DNA of 64,000 bases, from positions 62,001 through 126,000 of the forward strand of contig JAJFGJ010000006.1 of assembly GCA_021776175.1 (NCBI GenBank), written 5' to 3'. The stretch's first letter is position 1. Each line of letters begins with the position of its first letter. The position numbers and the translations under genes were made by a program. This DNA is from Kiloniellaceae bacterium. Its GTDB lineage: Bacteria > Pseudomonadota > Alphaproteobacteria > Kiloniellales > J153. Positions 7,800 through 61,575 of this stretch are shown one piece after another. The notes under the pieces were generated by a model that saw only the letters and a list, made by a program, of their open reading frames with translations, was not told the DNA's origin and did not search any database.

Positions 7800-8471
7800 A
7801 TGCGGACCATGAGCGATGTAACCAAGACCGGCGAGAAGGTGCCCGACTTCCATGAGGATTTCCGGGCCCGCCTGCACGACTTGTTCCTTTGGCGCCGGGA
7901 CGTGCGGCGGTTCCGGCGCGACCCCGTGCCAGCCGAAACGGTGAAGGAATTGCTGTCGATCGCGGTCTTGGCCCCATCGGTGGGCTACAGCCAGCCTTGG
8001 CGCTTCGTCTCGGTCGAGGACGCGGCCCGCCGCGCCGCAGTTCGCGACAACTTCGCGCGCTGCAATGCCGAGGCCCTGGCCCAGCACCATGGCGCGCGGG
8101 CCGAGCTTTACGCCCAGCTTAAACTCGAGGGCCTGGACAAGGCGCCGGTTCAACTCGCCGTCTTTTGCGACGAAGGAACCCAGACCGGCCATGGCTTGGG
8201 GCGCCGGACCATGCCGGAAACCCTGCGCTATTCCGTGGTCATGGCCGTGCATACCCTTTGGCTCGCGGCCCGGGCGCGCGGGATCGGCGTCGGTTGGGTC
8301 TCGATCCTCGATCCCGAGGCCGTGAATCGGACTTTGGATATTCCCCAGGATTGGTCGCTGGTGGCCTATCTATGCCTTGGCTGGCCCGAGGAAGAACACT
8401 TGGACCCGGAACTCGCGCGCAGCGGTTGGGAGGACCGGCAGGAATCCGCCGGCACACTTCTGAAACGTTGA
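7800..8471 (+). CDS. bluB: 5,6-dimethylbenzimidazole synthase BluB
   Basis: A 223-residue flavin-dependent nitroreductase-fold enzyme. It converts FMNH2 and O2 to 5,6-dimethylbenzimidazole, the lower ligand of vitamin B12. Diagnostic parts are LFLWRRDVRRFRRDPVPAE, the APSVGYSQPWRFV segment distinctive of BluB, and GVGWVSILDPE near the C-terminus. The ATG at 7800 has AGAAGG upstream. It follows the sensor kinase by 41 bases and may be a read-through passenger. No other cobalamin genes are adjacent and no cobalamin riboswitch is visible upstream. A corrinoid-binding protein is encoded later in the window (55552-57414), a possible consumer. Confidence 0.9.
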   Translation: MRTMSDVTKTGEKVPDFHEDFRARLHDLFLWRRDVRRFRRDPVPAETVKELLSIAVLAPSVGYSQPWRFVSVEDAARRAAVRDNFARCNAEALAQHHGARAELYAQLKLEGLDKAPVQLAVFCDEGTQTGHGLGRRTMPETLRYSVVMAVHTLWLAARARGIGVGWVSILDPEAVNRTLDIPQDWSLVAYLCLGWPEEEHLDPELARSGWEDRQESAGTLLKR

Positions 8472-54433: not shown

Positions 54434-54467
54434 GAGTTTAACCGAGCAGGGAGTTTAACCGAGCAGG
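54434..54467. repeat. 17-bp tandem duplication at the 3' end of the LysR gene
   Basis: GAGTTTAACCGAGCAGG is present twice in a row at 54434-54450 and 54451-54467, covering the stop codon and last codons of the minus-strand LysR gene. A recent slippage event is the simplest explanation. Confidence 0.85.
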
Positions 54468-55429
54468 TCGCTTGACGGTCTCCGGCGCCGCTTGGCGAGG
54501 CCCCGCATGGCCTTGGGATCGAAGGGGCGATCGTGACCGCGCGCTTCCTCCAGCAGCCAGGTCTTGAACAGCCGCACCTCCGGCCGCTCGATGGCTTCCT
54601 CCGGGGTCACAATGAAGTGGGCGTCGCGCGCCGGTATCGCGATATCGAAGGGTGCCACCAGACGGCCGTCGGCGAGGGCGTCGTCGACCATGGGCGACAG
54701 ACCGAGCGCCACGCCAATACCCTCGATGGCCGCGCGCGTGGTCATCATGTGGAGATCGAATTGCAGGGCGCCCCCGCCCGATAGGCCCGAAACCCCGGCG
54801 GCATGGAGCCACATATGCCAGTTTTCCGGCTCGCCGATCATGTGGATGAGTGTGTGCTTGACCAGATCCTTCGGCGTGGCGAGCGGCAAGCCGCCATCGA
54901 GCAGCGCCGGACCGCAGACCGGGAACAGGGCTTCCCAGAACAAGCGTTCGGCCCGAAAGCCCGGCCACTGACCGGTGCCGTAGCGGATTTCGAGGTCGGT
55001 GCCGGCCTGACCGAAGGACAAACCGTCGGCGGAGGTGGTCATGCGCAGGCCGACACCGGGATGGCGGGCGTGGAAGCGGGCCAGGCGCGGCACCAACCAA
55101 AGGTAGGTGAGAGAGGTGCTGACCCGGACGGCGACCGGGCCGCCGCGGCCGCTGCCGAACAGGTCCTGGGTGCCCGCCGCCAGGTGATCGAAAGCCTGAC
55201 GGACGATCGGCAGATAGCCGTGCCCGGCATCGGTTAGTGTGAGCGAGCGCGGCTGGCGCGTGAACAGCGCCGTGCCCAGCGCGGCCTCGAGTTGCTTCAC
55301 CTGTTGGCTGATGGCGGCGGGAGTGACATTCAGTTCCTTGGCCGCCTCGGCGAAACTGGTGTGCCGCGCCGCCGCCTCGAAGGCACGCAACCAATTGAGG
55401 GGGGGCAGGCGGCGTTTTTTCAATGACAT
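54455..55429 (-). CDS. LysR-family regulator, GcvA type
   Basis: A 324-residue LTTR. The N-terminal HTH is PLNWLRAFEAAARHTSFAEA, then AKELNVTPAAISQQVKQLEA with ALGTALFTRQPRSLTLTDAG. The periplasmic-binding-like effector domain occupies residues 95-300 (VRVSTSLTYLWLVPRLARFH, then IEGIGVALGLSPMVDDAL). The opening sequence and the W-L-V-P-R-L signature place it in the GcvA-like group. It is divergent from the UroD-corrinoid gene with 122 bases between starts and is its probable regulator. The coding region ends in a short tandem duplication. Confidence 0.9.
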   Translation of the reverse strand: MSLKKRRLPPLNWLRAFEAAARHTSFAEAAKELNVTPAAISQQVKQLEAALGTALFTRQPRSLTLTDAGHGYLPIVRQAFDHLAAGTQDLFGSGRGGPVAVRVSTSLTYLWLVPRLARFHARHPGVGLRMTTSADGLSFGQAGTDLEIRYGTGQWPGFRAERLFWEALFPVCGPALLDGGLPLATPKDLVKHTLIHMIGEPENWHMWLHAAGVSGLSGGGALQFDLHMMTTRAAIEGIGVALGLSPMVDDALADGRLVAPFDIAIPARDAHFIVTPEEAIERPEVRLFKTWLLEEARGHDRPFDPKAMRGLAKRRRRPSSDLLG

Positions 55430-55551
55430 CGCGCTTGCTCATATTGCCTTAGCTTTTCTATTGCTTAGGACAGAAAAACCTAGTTTGTCAAGGGCATGCG
55501 ACCCGGGCACCTTGAAGGCTTCCAAGAGCCGTCGCCCGAGGAGAAATTGTC

Positions 55552-57414
55552 ATGCCCGAGTTCGATTTCGAAGAGGGATTCAAGCGCTACGACGCCGCCA
55601 TGACCACCGGATCGGACGTCGTTTCCCTCATCGCCCAAATGCACGAATTCTCCATGGCCGCCACAAAGGCGCGCGGAGATGTGTTCTACACCGATGCCGA
55701 CACCTTCGTGCGCGGCATCTGCACGACGGCGCGCGATCTGGGCTTCGACACGCCAAGCTTTATTTGGGACACCTACAACATCGAGGCCGAGGCCCTCGGC
55801 GTCGAGCTGGTGACCTTCGAGGACATGGCCCCGGCCCTCAGCAACGCGGTGCCGCTGATCGCGAACGGGGCCGACCTGGCGCGGCTCAAGACACCCGACC
55901 CGGCGACCGCCGGGCGCATGCCCTTCGTGGCCGAAGTCCTGCACCTGGCCAAAGTGTATACGGGCCGCCGCCCGGCACTGGGCTTCTGCGCCCCCTTCAC
56001 CATGGCCGCGCATCTCATGACCTTCGAGAACCTGATCGTGCGGATCAAGCGCGACCCGGCCTTCGTGCACAAGGTCATGAACTTCATCGTCGACGAGGTT
56101 CTGGTGCCCTACTGCCGCCACATGCATAAGCAGTTCCCTGACCTGCCCGGATACGAAGGTTCCGACGCCACCGCTTCCCTGCCCTTCATCACTCAGGACA
56201 TGCAGGATGAATTCGCGCTGGGCCCCATAGAACGCCTTCAGCGCCAGCTCGGTCTTCCCTGTTATGTCGACAACTGGTGGGGCGATTCCTACACCGACGA
56301 CAAGGAGCGTTTTTGGGAAAACAAGCTGCGCGTGACACCGGCCTACTTCAAGATCCAAGATCCCGACCTGTGGAAGGTCGGGCTGGAAGGGCCCATGGAC
56401 TTCGCGCGCCGCAAGGGCAAGTCGGTTGTCCTGGGTATCGACAACAACCTGTTCCAGAACGGCCCGGCGGAAGAAATCGAAAAGCGCGTTCATGAATACA
56501 TGACGGCGATCGAGGAAAGCGGCGGCAAGGGCACGGTTTATTTTTGCAGCCTGTCGGCGGTCACCCCGCCAGAGTACGTCGAAGCGGCGGTCGAAGCGGT
56601 GCGTAAATTCCGCGCAGGCGACCGGCCCTGGGCCGGGCTGCACCGCGCCGGGACGCCCCAAGCGCGCGGCGAAACGGCCAAGAAGGACAAGACCGGTGCC
56701 GGCGTGGGCAGTGTTTCCAAGCCCACCCCACCGCTCTCGCCCACCGATGAGGCCAAGGAGCAACGCCTCGACGCGATCTATAACGCGGTCATGGATTACG
56801 ACGATCTGAACTGCGCCCCGAACGTGCGGGAAGCGCTCGACAATGGCGTCGATGTTTACGAGATCCTCGACGACGCCCTCATCGCGGCCATGGACGAGAT
56901 CGGCGGCATGTTCAGCGACGGCACCATCTTCGTGCCGGAAATGCTCATGGCCGCCAGGGCCATGAAGGCGGGCCTCAACGTCCTGCGCCCAATCCTGACC
57001 CAGACCGGGATGCCCCCCAAGGGCCGCGTCATCCTGGCGACCGTCCAGGGCGATGTGCACGATATCGGCAAGAACCTGGTGGGCATGATGCTGGAAGGCG
57101 CCGGCTACGAAGTATTCGATCTGGGCGTCAATCAGACCAAGGAGCAAATCATGGACAAGGCCGAGGAGCTGCACCCCAACGTTGTTGGGCTCTCCGCGCT
57201 TCTGACCACCTCCATGCCGGCCATGGCCAAGACGGTCGCCGCCTTCAAGAAGAAAGGCCTGCCCTATCCGGTAATCATCGGGGGCGCGCCGGTGACCGAG
57301 GCCTACGCCGAAGCGGTCGGCGCCGATGGCTACGGCGAGAACGCGCCGGGCGCTGTCGCCCTGGTCAACAAATTAGTGGACGGCGCCCCTCCAAGCCGCG
57401 AGCAGGCGGCCTAG
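55552..57414 (+). CDS. Fused UroD-type methyltransferase and corrinoid-binding protein
   Basis: A 620-residue cytosolic protein of two parts. Residues about 10-360 have the uroporphyrinogen-decarboxylase/MtaA-MtbA fold (RRPALGFCAPFTMAAHLMTF; VYFCSLSAVTPPEYVEAAVE). A Pro/Lys-rich linker (about 365-400) leads to a cap region and a Rossmann cobalamin-binding domain with GDVHDIGKNLVGMMLEGAGY (base-off DxHxxG motif near residue 500), then NVVGLSALLTTSMPAMAKTV. Separate UroD-like and corrinoid proteins normally collaborate in one-carbon transfer to methylated amines or methanol; a fusion is unusual. I do not see the H-x-C zinc pair of MtbA/MtaA. It is divergent from a GcvA-like LTTR and no substrate-specific MttB-type methyltransferase is adjacent. 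Confidence 0.85.
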   Translation: MPEFDFEEGFKRYDAAMTTGSDVVSLIAQMHEFSMAATKARGDVFYTDADTFVRGICTTARDLGFDTPSFIWDTYNIEAEALGVELVTFEDMAPALSNAVPLIANGADLARLKTPDPATAGRMPFVAEVLHLAKVYTGRRPALGFCAPFTMAAHLMTFENLIVRIKRDPAFVHKVMNFIVDEVLVPYCRHMHKQFPDLPGYEGSDATASLPFITQDMQDEFALGPIERLQRQLGLPCYVDNWWGDSYTDDKERFWENKLRVTPAYFKIQDPDLWKVGLEGPMDFARRKGKSVVLGIDNNLFQNGPAEEIEKRVHEYMTAIEESGGKGTVYFCSLSAVTPPEYVEAAVEAVRKFRAGDRPWAGLHRAGTPQARGETAKKDKTGAGVGSVSKPTPPLSPTDEAKEQRLDAIYNAVMDYDDLNCAPNVREALDNGVDVYEILDDALIAAMDEIGGMFSDGTIFVPEMLMAARAMKAGLNVLRPILTQTGMPPKGRVILATVQGDVHDIGKNLVGMMLEGAGYEVFDLGVNQTKEQIMDKAEELHPNVVGLSALLTTSMPAMAKTVAAFKKKGLPYPVIIGGAPVTEAYAEAVGADGYGENAPGAVALVNKLVDGAPPSREQAA

Positions 57415-57422
57415 TACTTGCG

Positions 57423-57839
57423 CTAGTCCGCCCATAGCGAATCCATGACCGGGCAATCCGGCACCGTGCCGCCTTCGCACTCGTCGGTAATACGTGACAG
57501 CGTGCGCTCCAGACGATTCAGGTCGGCGATCTTGCGGCGGACGGTTCCGAGATGGCTGAGGGTCAGATCGCGGATATCGCCGCAGGTGTAGGCCTTCGAA
57601 TCGACAAGCGACAGCAGGCTGCGCAGTTCCTCGATGCTGAAGCCCAATTCCCGGCCGCGCAGGATAAACCGCAGGCGGCGCTGGTCCTCGACGCCATAGA
57701 GTCTGTGCCCGCCTTTCGAGCGGGCTGGCGGGCGCAGCAGGCCGATTTTCTCATAGTAACGGACCGTTTCCAGGTGGCAGCCGAAACGCTTGGCCAGCGT
57801 GCCGCGCGTGATCGGCGTGGGGGTGGCGGTAAGCGGCAC
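57423..57839 (-). CDS. merR: MerR-family mercury-responsive regulator
   Basis: A 138-residue regulator started at GTG 57839 (AGAGGA ten bases upstream); GTG 57860 would overlap the promoter of merF. The MerR HTH is seen in GTLAKRFGCHLETVRYYEKI, then GLLRPPARSKGGHRLYGVED. A long dimerisation helix follows (FSIEELRSLLSLVDSKAYTC ...). The Hg ligands of MerR correspond to the Cys in AYTCGDI, the Cys in DECEGGTVPDC, and a third in the same segment; spacing from the first to the second is 35 residues, as in Tn501 MerR. It is divergent from merF-merA across a 19-base-spacer promoter. Confidence 0.9.
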   Translation of the reverse strand: MPLTATPTPITRGTLAKRFGCHLETVRYYEKIGLLRPPARSKGGHRLYGVEDQRRLRFILRGRELGFSIEELRSLLSLVDSKAYTCGDIRDLTLSHLGTVRRKIADLNRLERTLSRITDECEGGTVPDCPVMDSLWAD

Positions 57840-57854
57840 GGCTGAAATATCCTC

Positions 57855-57885
57855 TTGCACCTGTAGTTACTACAGACCGCATACT
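57855..57885 (+). promoter_or_regulatory. MerR-type promoter with 19-base spacer and central palindrome
   Basis: TTGCAC at 57855-57860 and CATACT at 57880-57885 are 19 bases apart, the overlong spacer typical of MerR-family promoters. Inside lies the perfect inverted repeat CTGTAG-TTA-CTACAG at 57861-57875. MerR bound here would untwist the DNA on sensing Hg(II) and fire merF-merA. Confidence 0.8.
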
Positions 57886-57980
57886 AACCGCATGGCGGAG
57901 GGCGACACAAAGAGCGAAGAGACGGCGATACCAGCCGCCGCCGTGGTCTCGAACGAAATCATGACAACGAGAGGTGTGCC

Positions 57981-58220
57981 GTGAACGACCGCAAAATGCT
58001 TCGTGTCGGACTTGGAGGGGCGGTTTTCTCCCTGATCTGCTGTTTCACGCCTCTGCTTGTGATTCTGCTTACCGGTGTTGGGCTTTCGGCCATGGTTGGC
58101 TGGTTGGACTATGTCTTGTTCCCGCTTCTTTTTGCCTCCTTGGGGCTGGTCGCCTACGCCTATTATCTGCGTGGAAAACAGGACAAAACGCCGTCCGGTC
58201 CACGCGAAACAAAATCATGA
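57981..58220 (+). CDS. merF: Mercuric ion transporter MerF
   Basis: A 79-residue inner-membrane mercury importer starting at GTG 57981 (GAGAGG upstream). TM1 contains the metal pair C20-C21 (SLICCFTPLLVILLTG), TM2 follows (WLDYVLFPLLFASLGLVAY), with a hydrophilic tail. The second vicinal Cys pair usually present near the C-terminus of MerF is missing here: no further Cys occurs. It overlaps merA by four bases (ATGA). No merP or merT is present, so this is the only transporter in the operon. Confidence 0.9.
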   Translation: MNDRKMLRVGLGGAVFSLICCFTPLLVILLTGVGLSAMVGWLDYVLFPLLFASLGLVAYAYYLRGKQDKTPSGPRETKS

Positions 58221-59647
58221 AGGGCGTGTCCCCCGCCGCGCCAAAACGCGGCGGCCCTTACGACCTTGCCGTGATCGGTGCCGGGTCGGCCGGTTTCTCG
58301 GCCGCCATCGCGGCCGCCGACCAAGGCGCGCGGGTGGCCCTGATCGGCCACGGCACCATCGGCGGCACCTGCGTCAATGTCGGTTGCGTGCCCTCCAAGG
58401 CCTTGATCCGCGCCGCCGAGGCCATCCACCATGCCAACGCCGCACCCCGGTTCGCGGGGGTCTCTGCCGCCGGCCAGGTTAAGGATTGGAACGCCTTGCG
58501 GGCGCAAAAGGACGCGCTCGTCGCTTCTCTCCGGCAGGCCAAGTATATCGATCTGTTGCCTGCCTACAGCGGCATCGACTACCTGGAGGGCAAGGCCCGC
58601 CTTGAACATGGCGGCGCCGCGGTGGACGGACAGCACATCGATGCCGGCAAAATCATCATCGCCACCGGGTCGCGCGAATTCGTGCCGCCCATCCCAGGCA
58701 TTACCGATGTGCCCTTTCTGACCAGCACTTCAGCCTTCGAATTGGAAAGCCTGCCCGAGACCATGATCGTGATCGGCGGCGGCTACATCGGCTGCGAGTT
58801 GGCGCAGATGTTCGCCCGCCTCGGCGTCCAGGTGACGATTGCGTTCCGCAGCCGGCTGTTGCCGGAGGGCGAGCCGGAAATCAGCGCGGCGCTCGCGGAC
58901 ATCTTTGAACAAGAAGGCATCGCCGTACGGCGGATCACCTCATACGACAGCATCCACGCGAGCAATGACGGCATAGCGCTGTCGGTGACCGTTGACGGCG
59001 CAGCCGAAATCCTCAAGGCGCGGCGGCTGTTATTGAGCGCGGGGCGCCGAGCCAATAGTGGCGGCTTGGGTTTGGCGGAAGCCGGTGTCGCCTTGACGGC
59101 GAGCGGCGGGATTAAGGTCGATGACCGCATGCGCACGACCAAGGTCGGCGTTTATGCCGCCGGCGACGTGACCGGGCGCGATGAGTTTGTCTACATGGCG
59201 GCTTACGGGGCCAAGATCGCGGCCGGCAATGCCTTGAACGACGATGGGCGGCGCTACGACAACCTGGCCATGGCGACGGTCGTCTTCACCGACCCGCAGG
59301 TGGCGAGCGTCGGTCTTACCGAGGCGGCGGCCAAGGCCCAGGGGATCGGCGCCAGGACCTCGGTTCTATCCTTGGACAATGTGCCGCGCGCGCTTGCCGC
59401 CCGCGATACGCGCGGACTTATCAAGCTGGTCGCCGAGTCCGCCACCGGCAAGCTGATCGGGGCTCATATCCTGGCGCCGGAGGGCGCCGACAGCATCCAA
59501 ACGGCGGCGCTCGCGATCAAGCAAGGCATGACCTATGGCGAGCTTGGCGACATGATCTTCCCCTACCTCACCACGGTCGAAGGCTTGAAGCTTGCCGCTC
59601 AGACCTTCGATATGGATGTGTCCAAACTCTCGTGCTGCGCGGGTTGA
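58217..59647 (+). CDS. merA: Mercuric reductase MerA
   Basis: A 476-residue FAD- and NADPH-dependent enzyme that reduces Hg(II) to volatile Hg(0). ATG 58217 is coupled to merF. FAD-binding DLAVIGAGSAGFSAAIAAA, the redox-active pair C52 and C57 in GGTCVNVGCVPSKAL, NADPH-binding IVIGGGYIGCELAQMFARLG, and the dimer interface TVVFTDPQVASVGLTEAAAK. The C-terminal pair C473-C474 (KLSCCAG) that hands Hg to the active site is intact. The N-terminal heavy-metal domain (NmerA) is absent. The large frame upstream of ATG 58217 overlaps merF and is rejected. Confidence 0.94.
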   Translation: MKGVSPAAPKRGGPYDLAVIGAGSAGFSAAIAAADQGARVALIGHGTIGGTCVNVGCVPSKALIRAAEAIHHANAAPRFAGVSAAGQVKDWNALRAQKDALVASLRQAKYIDLLPAYSGIDYLEGKARLEHGGAAVDGQHIDAGKIIIATGSREFVPPIPGITDVPFLTSTSAFELESLPETMIVIGGGYIGCELAQMFARLGVQVTIAFRSRLLPEGEPEISAALADIFEQEGIAVRRITSYDSIHASNDGIALSVTVDGAAEILKARRLLLSAGRRANSGGLGLAEAGVALTASGGIKVDDRMRTTKVGVYAAGDVTGRDEFVYMAAYGAKIAAGNALNDDGRRYDNLAMATVVFTDPQVASVGLTEAAAKAQGIGARTSVLSLDNVPRALAARDTRGLIKLVAESATGKLIGAHILAPEGADSIQTAALAIKQGMTYGELGDMIFPYLTTVEGLKLAAQTFDMDVSKLSCCAG

Positions 59648-59695: not shown

Positions 59696-60439
59696 CTAAA
59701 CCCCAAATAGCCGCCCCGGTCCCGGAACTCCCTCGCCAACCCCGGCAAGCCGCAGCAGATGCCACGCGAGCGCCTGATTGCTGGAGACTACCGGCTTGCC
59801 CAGGGCTTCTTCCGCCGGCGCCAGAATTCCGAAGGTGCGCAGATTGGTGCAGGAAACAAAGACCGCGTCGCAGTCCGGCTCCGTGCCGATTTCCATGATC
59901 GCCTTGAGGGTGGACGCCTCGGAAATTCGCGCGACCACGCGATCTTGCACCTGATCGAAGGACCCAAATCCGGTAACCTGAAAGCCGTTATCCTCCAACA
60001 AGCGGCGCATGGCCTGGGATACTTCGGGCACGTAGGGCGTTAGAAAACCGAGCCTCTTAACATTGAGCGCCCGGCACCCCGCCACGACCGCTGTAATTGG
60101 ATCGGTGACCGGCACCCCCGCATGATGCCGCCCCACCATTTCGGCGACCGCATCCTGGCCGATCACCGTCGCCCCCGACGTGCAGGCATAGCCTATCGCA
60201 TCGAAGGAAACGGTTTTGGGCAGCAGGCTCGCGGTATCGGGCAGGTCCTTCTTCATCCGCGCCAAGGTCTCTTTCGTCACCAAGGGATCGTTGCGGATTC
60301 GCGCGTGGTACAACGCGATGGCGGGATCGCGATAAACCTGCCGTAACTCGTTCTCCAGGGTTTCATCGGTCTGAAGAATAATCGCGCCGAGGGTGGCGAG
60401 TCCCCCCGCCGTCCGATCGGTATCGAATGGGAGTCCCAC
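59696..60439 (-). CDS. Asp/Glu racemase-superfamily protein (maleate isomerase-like)
   Basis: A 247-residue protein of the Asp/Glu/hydantoin racemase fold, close to maleate cis-trans isomerase and arylmalonate decarboxylase. The two active-site cysteines are in IGYACTSGATVIGQ and VFVSCTNLRTFG, spanning the interdomain cleft. Start is GTG 60439, eight bases downstream of the M24 gene's stop, so the two are an operon. EutA, an isomerase-like partner of ectoine catabolism, has this fold and neighbours an M24 hydrolase. Whether this pair degrades ectoine is uncertain because no other ectoine genes are present. Confidence 0.82.
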   Translation of the reverse strand: MGLPFDTDRTAGGLATLGAIILQTDETLENELRQVYRDPAIALYHARIRNDPLVTKETLARMKKDLPDTASLLPKTVSFDAIGYACTSGATVIGQDAVAEMVGRHHAGVPVTDPITAVVAGCRALNVKRLGFLTPYVPEVSQAMRRLLEDNGFQVTGFGSFDQVQDRVVARISEASTLKAIMEIGTEPDCDAVFVSCTNLRTFGILAPAEEALGKPVVSSNQALAWHLLRLAGVGEGVPGPGRLFGV

Positions 60440-60447
60440 GGGGCCGC

Positions 60448-61575
60448 CTATATCACCGGCAATTCCGGTGCCGCCCGTTCGCTCAACAAGACAGGGGCGT
60501 CTTCGGTAATCAGGATGTTTTCCTCGTGCACCATCATTTTGCCATTCGCCATGGTTAGACTCGGCTCCAGAGTAATCGCCATGCCCGACTTGAGGATTGT
60601 TTCATCCCAAGCACATATGGATGGCCACTCGGTTAGCTGTATTCCAAGCCCGTGACCGTAGCGCCCGATATCCGACGACCCGCCGCCGACCACATCGTGC
60701 ATGGCGTGAAAGATATCGCGGCAGCGGATGCCGGCACGGGCGGCGGCCAATCCCGCCTCGGTCGCATTCCAGAGTTTTTCATATGCGGCCTTGGCCACGT
60801 CTTCCGCGCCTCCAATGGCGAAATTACGGTCGAAATCGCAAAAATACCCGCTTAGAGTCGCGCCGGTATCCAACATCAACACATCGTTTTCCCTAAGCGG
60901 TTCGCTTGACGGCGGGGATATCACATCCCCATAGCCGCCCTGCCCCGCGGCCCCGACAAGATAGGGCACGTCATCCGCCCCTTCCCGCAACAAGGCGATC
61001 TTGAAGGACCGGAATGCTTCGTCCAAGGGCTGCCCGGCATGGAAGATGTCCGGGCCGCGCGCGAAAGCGGCGCTGGCGATGGCGCAGATCTTTCGAAGAA
61101 TCGCGATCTCGGCTTCCGATTTGATCATGCGCACGGATTTGACCAGGGGCGTGCAATCCACGAATTCCACCCCAATCGACGCGCGAAGCGCCATGAAGTC
61201 GCGCGGCGGCATCCGCAGGCTCGCCTCGTCGCCCATGGGCAAACCGACACGCGAATAGCCCTTGAGAGCTTCCACCAGCAGGCTAACACCGTCGTCCGTG
61301 GGATGCGGGGACGACCATGTCCGGATATCCCCGATCCAGGTCTTGCCCATGAGGTCCGCGCCAATACGCGGAATCACCGCTATGGGTTCGCCTTTACGAG
61401 GCACGATCAGAAACCACGGCCGCGTCGGACTTTGCCAAAACAAGGTACGGAAGCCGGAGAAATAGCGCACCTCCGCCTCGGTGCAAAAAAGCAATGCGTC
61501 GAGTTGTCGCGCCTGCATGGCGGTCCGCGCCTTCTCCACGCGCGCTTGGAACTCGGTTAGGGCGAAGTCACTCAT
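60448..61575 (-). CDS. M24-family metallopeptidase (Xaa-Pro peptidase/ectoine hydrolase-like)
   Basis: A 375-residue creatinase-fold hydrolase. An N-terminal domain (about 1-150) precedes the pita-bread catalytic domain. All five metal ligands are recognisable: the Asp in LMLDTGATLSGYFCDFDRNF (two Asp), His in RYGHGLGIQLTEWP, Glu in MAITLEPSLTM and Glu in MVHEENILIT. Relatives include aminopeptidase P, creatinase and ectoine hydrolase DoeA. It heads an operon with a maleate-isomerase-like protein. ATG 61575. Substrate cannot be assigned from sequence alone. Confidence 0.88.
   Translation of the reverse strand: MSDFALTEFQARVEKARTAMQARQLDALLFCTEAEVRYFSGFRTLFWQSPTRPWFLIVPRKGEPIAVIPRIGADLMGKTWIGDIRTWSSPHPTDDGVSLLVEALKGYSRVGLPMGDEASLRMPPRDFMALRASIGVEFVDCTPLVKSVRMIKSEAEIAILRKICAIASAAFARGPDIFHAGQPLDEAFRSFKIALLREGADDVPYLVGAAGQGGYGDVISPPSSEPLRENDVLMLDTGATLSGYFCDFDRNFAIGGAEDVAKAAYEKLWNATEAGLAAARAGIRCRDIFHAMHDVVGGGSSDIGRYGHGLGIQLTEWPSICAWDETILKSGMAITLEPSLTMANGKMMVHEENILITEDAPVLLSERAAPELPVI

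Follow-up and report, generated by a model that had tools for sequence, protein, structure and literature searches.

A single-chain UroD/corrinoid protein and its locus

Analysis of a 64,000-nucleotide stretch of a Kiloniellaceae genome (hereafter the window) uncovered an intact single open reading frame of 620 aa on the forward strand (55552-57414), in which a UroD-type domain is followed by a corrinoid protein. The initial annotation had described it as one 620-residue chain, and the reading frame, its Pfam domains, and a copy in a sister metagenome-assembled genome (MAG) bear this out. A plausible ribosome-binding site (AGGAGA, 55539-55544, forward strand) was recognized by inspection 7 nt 5′ of the ATG. 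The UroD-type domain covers residues 34-352 (55651-56607) and matches the URO-D superfamily (PF01208) with 68.9 bits (cutoff 23.9, E = 5e-19), along with weak MtaA/CmuA-type matches of 29-30 bits. A fast-evolving linker (residues 361-402; 56632-56757) leads to the corrinoid half, which comprises a helical cap (B12-binding_2, residues 406-478; 56767-56985; 70.9 bits, E = 1e-19) and a Rossmann-type B12-binding domain (residues 491-602; 57022-57357; 99 bits, E = 2e-28). All three Pfam domain calls exceed their gathering cut-offs.

The closest solved relatives of the B12-binding domain are 1y80, 7xcn, 4jgi, and MetH, and the corrinoid half aligns across ~200 residues to the solved carriers 1y80, 7xcn (trimethylamine corrinoid protein), and MetH. 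Its DxHxxG motif (DVHDIG, residues 501-506; 57052-57069) is intact within GDVHDIGKN and contains the lower cobalt ligand His503. The cap and the B12-binding domain with DxHxxG are together those of methyltransferase corrinoid proteins of the MtgC/MtbC/MtaC type, and cobalamin binding is predicted from the domains and the cobalt-ligand motif. The protein falls outside the named corrinoid subfamilies, with best scores of 175.6 bits for MtgC_2 (cutoff 370) and 171 for TIGR02370 (cutoff 215); the standalone carrier encoded in the same genome likewise lies below the MtgC, MtbC, and TIGR02370 cut-offs. Structure prediction of the fusion from only two homologs gave a pLDDT of 37 and a pTM of 0.24, and scans of viral contigs for further homologs to deepen the alignment found none. 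The fusion has no hemE match at E ≤ 0.001, and a separate 407-bit URO-D gene (HemE) is encoded on another contig (C38), so that haem synthesis is independent of the fusion.

The genes neighboring the fusion encode a LysR regulator, MerR, MerA, a racemase, and an M24 peptidase. The divergent regulator (54455-55429, reverse strand), initially annotated as GcvA-type, scores 314 bits on the NCBI GcvA subfamily model, above its cutoff of 288. A close homolog (87%) is found only in the two fusion-bearing genomes, whereas the best LysR match elsewhere in the family reaches at most 49%, which argues that the two genes are gained or lost as a pair. Because the fusion gene is divergent from the LysR gene and convergent with the merR gene, it is probably transcribed alone. 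The initial annotation also reported no MttB-like gene nearby, which extends to the whole contig of the window (C35): the four MttB homologs of the genome are encoded on C27, C22 (two), and C9. The bluB gene that it had pointed to is genuine (7800-8471; TIGR02476, 290 bits), but lies 47 kb away and was rejected as part of the fusion system.

Two genes lie between the fusion and the racemase (57423-59647), one for a merR-like regulator and the other for a mercury(II) reductase (TIGR02053, 534 bits, cutoff 454). The sister genome has NIPSNAP, ABM, and PAS-domain genes at this place, suggesting that one of the two genomes underwent an exchange beside the fusion; merR/merA, being absent from this place in the sister genome, were rejected as part of the system. 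Further downstream (59696-61575), an EutA/arylmalonate-decarboxylase-like protein and an M24 peptidase are encoded in tandem, with scores that miss the EutA and DoeA (ectoine enzyme) cut-offs. An equivalent pair occurs in a related genome that lacks the fusion (G001, L075:8880-10913). The pair is therefore regarded as a unit of its own and was rejected as part of the fusion's pathway.

Conservation, spread, and origin of the two halves

A second MAG (G002, record L034), which belongs to the same Kiloniellaceae genus, encodes the same single chain at 85-87% identity with the same LysR gene beside it. When the two copies are compared, the UroD part has a dN/dS ratio of 0.15, the corrinoid part one of 0.12, and the linker one of 0.49, with 0.17 overall; both domains are under purifying selection, and the tether is loosely held. 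An assembly chimera is ruled out by these ratios and by the recurrence of the single-chain protein in the second MAG. In the sister copy (near position 9983 of L034), ~79 bp are missing that in the window contain the ribosome-binding site and the first codons, and its start is perhaps the ATG matching Met17, unless the MAG carries a small deletion.

Searches with the UroD half used overlapping genome sets, all within the Pseudomonadota. At the level of the order, strong matches were found in two of 63 genomes, both in the fusion's genus (two of its four genomes). Across the class (385 genomes) and the phylum (399 genomes), the only strong match was the window's own, and 48 genomes of another class had none. 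Weak matches (E between 3e-5 and 7e-3) were short, the majority in standalone UroD-type reading frames. A contig scan using exact peptide words had a reach of close relatives only. Among plasmids, CmuA was the sole other UroD/corrinoid chain seen, and the nearest UroD relatives were a Leisingera protein and a Thiodictyon UroD encoded beside a separate corrinoid protein and a RACE activator. The Leisingera UroD-family protein (L052:11908-13242) is 25% identical to the UroD half and has no annotated corrinoid gene adjoining. Among the genomes searched, then, this UroD lineage is present in two genomes of one genus, in keeping with the initial view of an unusual protein with no assigned substrate.

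The corrinoid domain has more recognizable relatives. It is 53% identical to MttB-adjacent carriers in three genomes of the order (G020, G026, and G030) and 45-47% identical to the common alphaproteobacterial MtgC type. Both groups share DxHxxG with the fusion, but they are standalone and partner MttB-family rather than UroD-family methyltransferases; the three matches in the order, being standalone carriers beside MttB, were rejected as fusions. In a tree of corrinoid domains, the window and sister proteins group with the MttB-adjacent carriers (91/95), on long branches. For the UroD half, a profile built with its nearest relatives had a methylcobalamin:CoM methyltransferase as best solved match, ahead of true UroD, although the profile is not independent, as one member is itself MtaA-like.

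Zinc ligands and comparison with CmuA

Zinc in MtaA and CmuA is bound by an H-x-C pair and a distal cysteine. When the fusion is aligned with CmuA/MtaA-type proteins, CYVDNWWGD (residues 237-245; 56260-56286, forward strand) replaces H-x-C, with the exact register of these first two ligands uncertain at an identity below 20% in that region. This strand reads CYVDNWWG in both the window and the sister copy. Cys332 (56545-56547, forward strand) occupies the position of the third zinc ligand in MtaA/CmuA (GC..TP.EN..A), where YFCSLSAVTPPEYV, with one substitution in the sister, brings the distal Cys, Thr-Pro, and Glu into register with GC..TP.EN. The pattern of the zinc thiol methylases MtaA/MtbA (H-x-C...C) is thus incomplete, and the initial observation that the zinc pair is not evident was correct, with the qualification that the third cysteine is retained. 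Catalytic residues could not be recognized in the UroD half, which is too diverged.

The initial annotation took the loss of the zinc pair to raise a different acceptor chemistry, which on its own it does not imply: among donor-side UroD methyltransferases, CdmB is zinc-independent, and no zinc was detected in the O-demethylase of Moorella (PMC13222342). Since H-x-C is absent and zinc-free UroD enzymes of this kind are documented, a donor-side role as methyl-donor:corrinoid methyltransferase (MTI) is favored over exotic acceptor chemistry. In the opposite direction of transfer, the corrinoid domain would be methylated by one of the genome's four MttB enzymes and the UroD domain would pass the methyl group to a small acceptor, as MtaA-type UroD methylases (MtaA/MtbA) do with coenzyme M. 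The retained Cys332 and the affinity of the corrinoid half to MttB-adjacent carriers would suit such an acceptor-side enzyme, but the thiol-activating H-x-C pair is gone and an H4-folate-type acceptor enzyme is already encoded in the genome, which leaves this arrangement unlikely.

A donor-side role gains support from CmuA of Methylorubrum extorquens CM4 (pCMU01), a two-domain chloromethane methyltransferase/corrinoid protein (PMC3621897), because this experimentally known MTI/corrinoid protein matches the fusion in length and in the order of its domains. Both proteins are alphaproteobacterial and carry an N-terminal UroD-type domain and a C-terminal corrinoid domain on one chain, of 617 aa in CmuA and 620 aa in the fusion. 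The resemblance does not extend to their sequences. Against the MtaA/CmuA family model (TIGR01463, cutoff 235), the fusion scores 29.3 bits, while CmuA of CM4 scores 456 and a homolog from the same order (G034) scores 421. The fusion's corrinoid half is only 33-35% identical to that of CmuA, its GDVHDIGKN stands against GNTQDIGKN (NxQxxG) in both CmuA proteins, and it lacks the H-x-C that CmuA keeps. No cmuB-, cmuC-, purU-, or folD-type genes were found at the locus. By these sequence measures, the fusion is not CmuA.

A diverged CmuA acting as a dehalogenase of chloromethane or another methyl halide is distinctly unlikely on the same grounds, even though domain order and size are shared, a genuine cmu-like cluster is present in the order, and a common corrinoid clade is compatible with the AU test: a single fused clade including CmuA was not rejected (p = 0.10). 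The differences in corrinoid identity and cobalt-ligand motif favor a fusion event independent of that in CmuA, which we regard as likely from the sequence comparisons, but not proven.

Proposed methyl transfer and related systems

We consider it probable, with somewhat better than even confidence, that the fusion is an MTI with a built-in carrier that works in the manner of CmuA without being CmuA. The UroD barrel would bind a small methylated compound and offer its methyl group to Co(I) in the corrinoid domain at the other end of the linker. The flexibility of this tether would let the resulting methyl-Co(III) swing over to another, separate methyltransferase. Transfer to tetrahydrofolate would probably fall to an MtgD-like pterin-binding enzyme encoded on contig C13 of the same genome, and oxidized Co(II) would be re-reduced by the RACE/ASKHA activator of the same cluster. 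The adjoining LysR gene probably switches the fusion on with its substrate. Here we infer the direction of transfer, the partners, and any substrate of the fusion.

The C13 cluster (L055:1792-8037) encodes an HD protein, a RACE activator, the pterin-binding (MtgD-like) methyltransferase, a MetF-like protein, a DUF1638 protein, and a standalone corrinoid protein. It has no adjoining MttB gene and resembles the mtg genes of marine roseobacters. In Ruegeria, MttB enzymes use a set as on C13, consisting of a corrinoid carrier, a pterin-binding methyltransferase, MetF-like and DUF1638 proteins, and RACE (PMC12478193). The C13 parts would be shared with the MttB enzymes, so the fusion would need no partners beside it. 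Counting against the donor-side reading, no tetrahydrofolate methyltransferase, activator, or transporter adjoins the fusion, unlike in the cmu, cdm, and mtv clusters.

The initial premise that methyl transfer systems of this type normally use separate chains agrees with the rarity of fusions in the genomes searched, but CmuA, MtsD/MtsF/MtsH, and an engineered protein are all fused. In MtsD, MtsF, and MtsH, the corrinoid part is N-terminal. These Methanosarcina corrinoid/methyltransferases, which move methyl groups from methyl sulfides to CoM (PMC10689795), are two-domain single chains like the fusion, but are archaeal and CoM-dependent, and are likened to it by description only. The working engineered O-demethylase of Desulfitobacterium hafniense (PMC9930637) has an N-terminal methyltransferase, a flexible linker, and a C-terminal corrinoid protein as in the window protein, but is artificial. 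CdmB/CdmC (haloalkane) and MtvB/MtvC (methoxyaromatic) pair zinc-free UroD-superfamily MTIs with a corrinoid protein (PMC13222342); unlike the fusion, they are separate chains with their own MTII in the cluster, and sequence searches with the fusion gave no specific link to either pair.

Within the donor-side reading, the substrate could be a methoxy or methyl-sulfur compound, and the fusion would then correspond, as an aerobic O- or S-demethylase, to MtvB/OdmB or MtsD. UroD-type MTIs that act on methoxyaromatics are known, some of them zinc-free (PMC13222342), and the fused Mts proteins use methyl sulfides (PMC10689795). However, no sequence search connected either group with the UroD half and no aromatic or sulfur catabolic genes adjoin the fusion, so that this more specific assignment is very unlikely. 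It is scarcely credible that the fusion is without catalytic activity and binds cobalamin for sensing or storage: the gene does stand alone and CarH-type proteins use corrinoid domains as sensors, but the fusion has no DNA-binding or signaling domain, its carrier is of the methyltransferase rather than the CarH type, and its UroD part shows the conservation expected of an enzyme.

The architecture of the fusion is already known, and the combination of parts is apparently new; among the genomes searched, only one genus has so far yielded it. Tentatively, and with considerable doubt, the fusion may represent a third type of single-chain UroD/corrinoid protein that was put together independently, joining an uncharted zinc-free UroD branch to an MttB-type carrier and acting on a donor new to corrinoid chemistry in aerobic Alphaproteobacteria. 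If so, the CmuA layout of enzyme and B12 carrier on one chain would have arisen more than once, and the fusion would offer a one-gene system for finding a new methyl donor of B12-dependent demethylation in Alphaproteobacteria, a process whose importance for glycine betaine was recently shown in marine bacteria (PMC12478193). Failing that, the fusion would be another unassigned member of a large, mostly uncharacterized superfamily.

The searches also recovered a cmu-like cluster in another genome of the order (G034, L054:3302-8798), encoding an MtrH/CmuB-like protein, a UroD/CmuC-like protein, a CmuA-like protein of 617 aa, a PaaE-like reductase, and an amidohydrolase-like protein. The match is a genuine CmuA-like protein whose neighbors resemble CmuB and CmuC, and was for this reason rejected as a relative of the fusion; the gene content makes this organism a candidate methyl-halide user.
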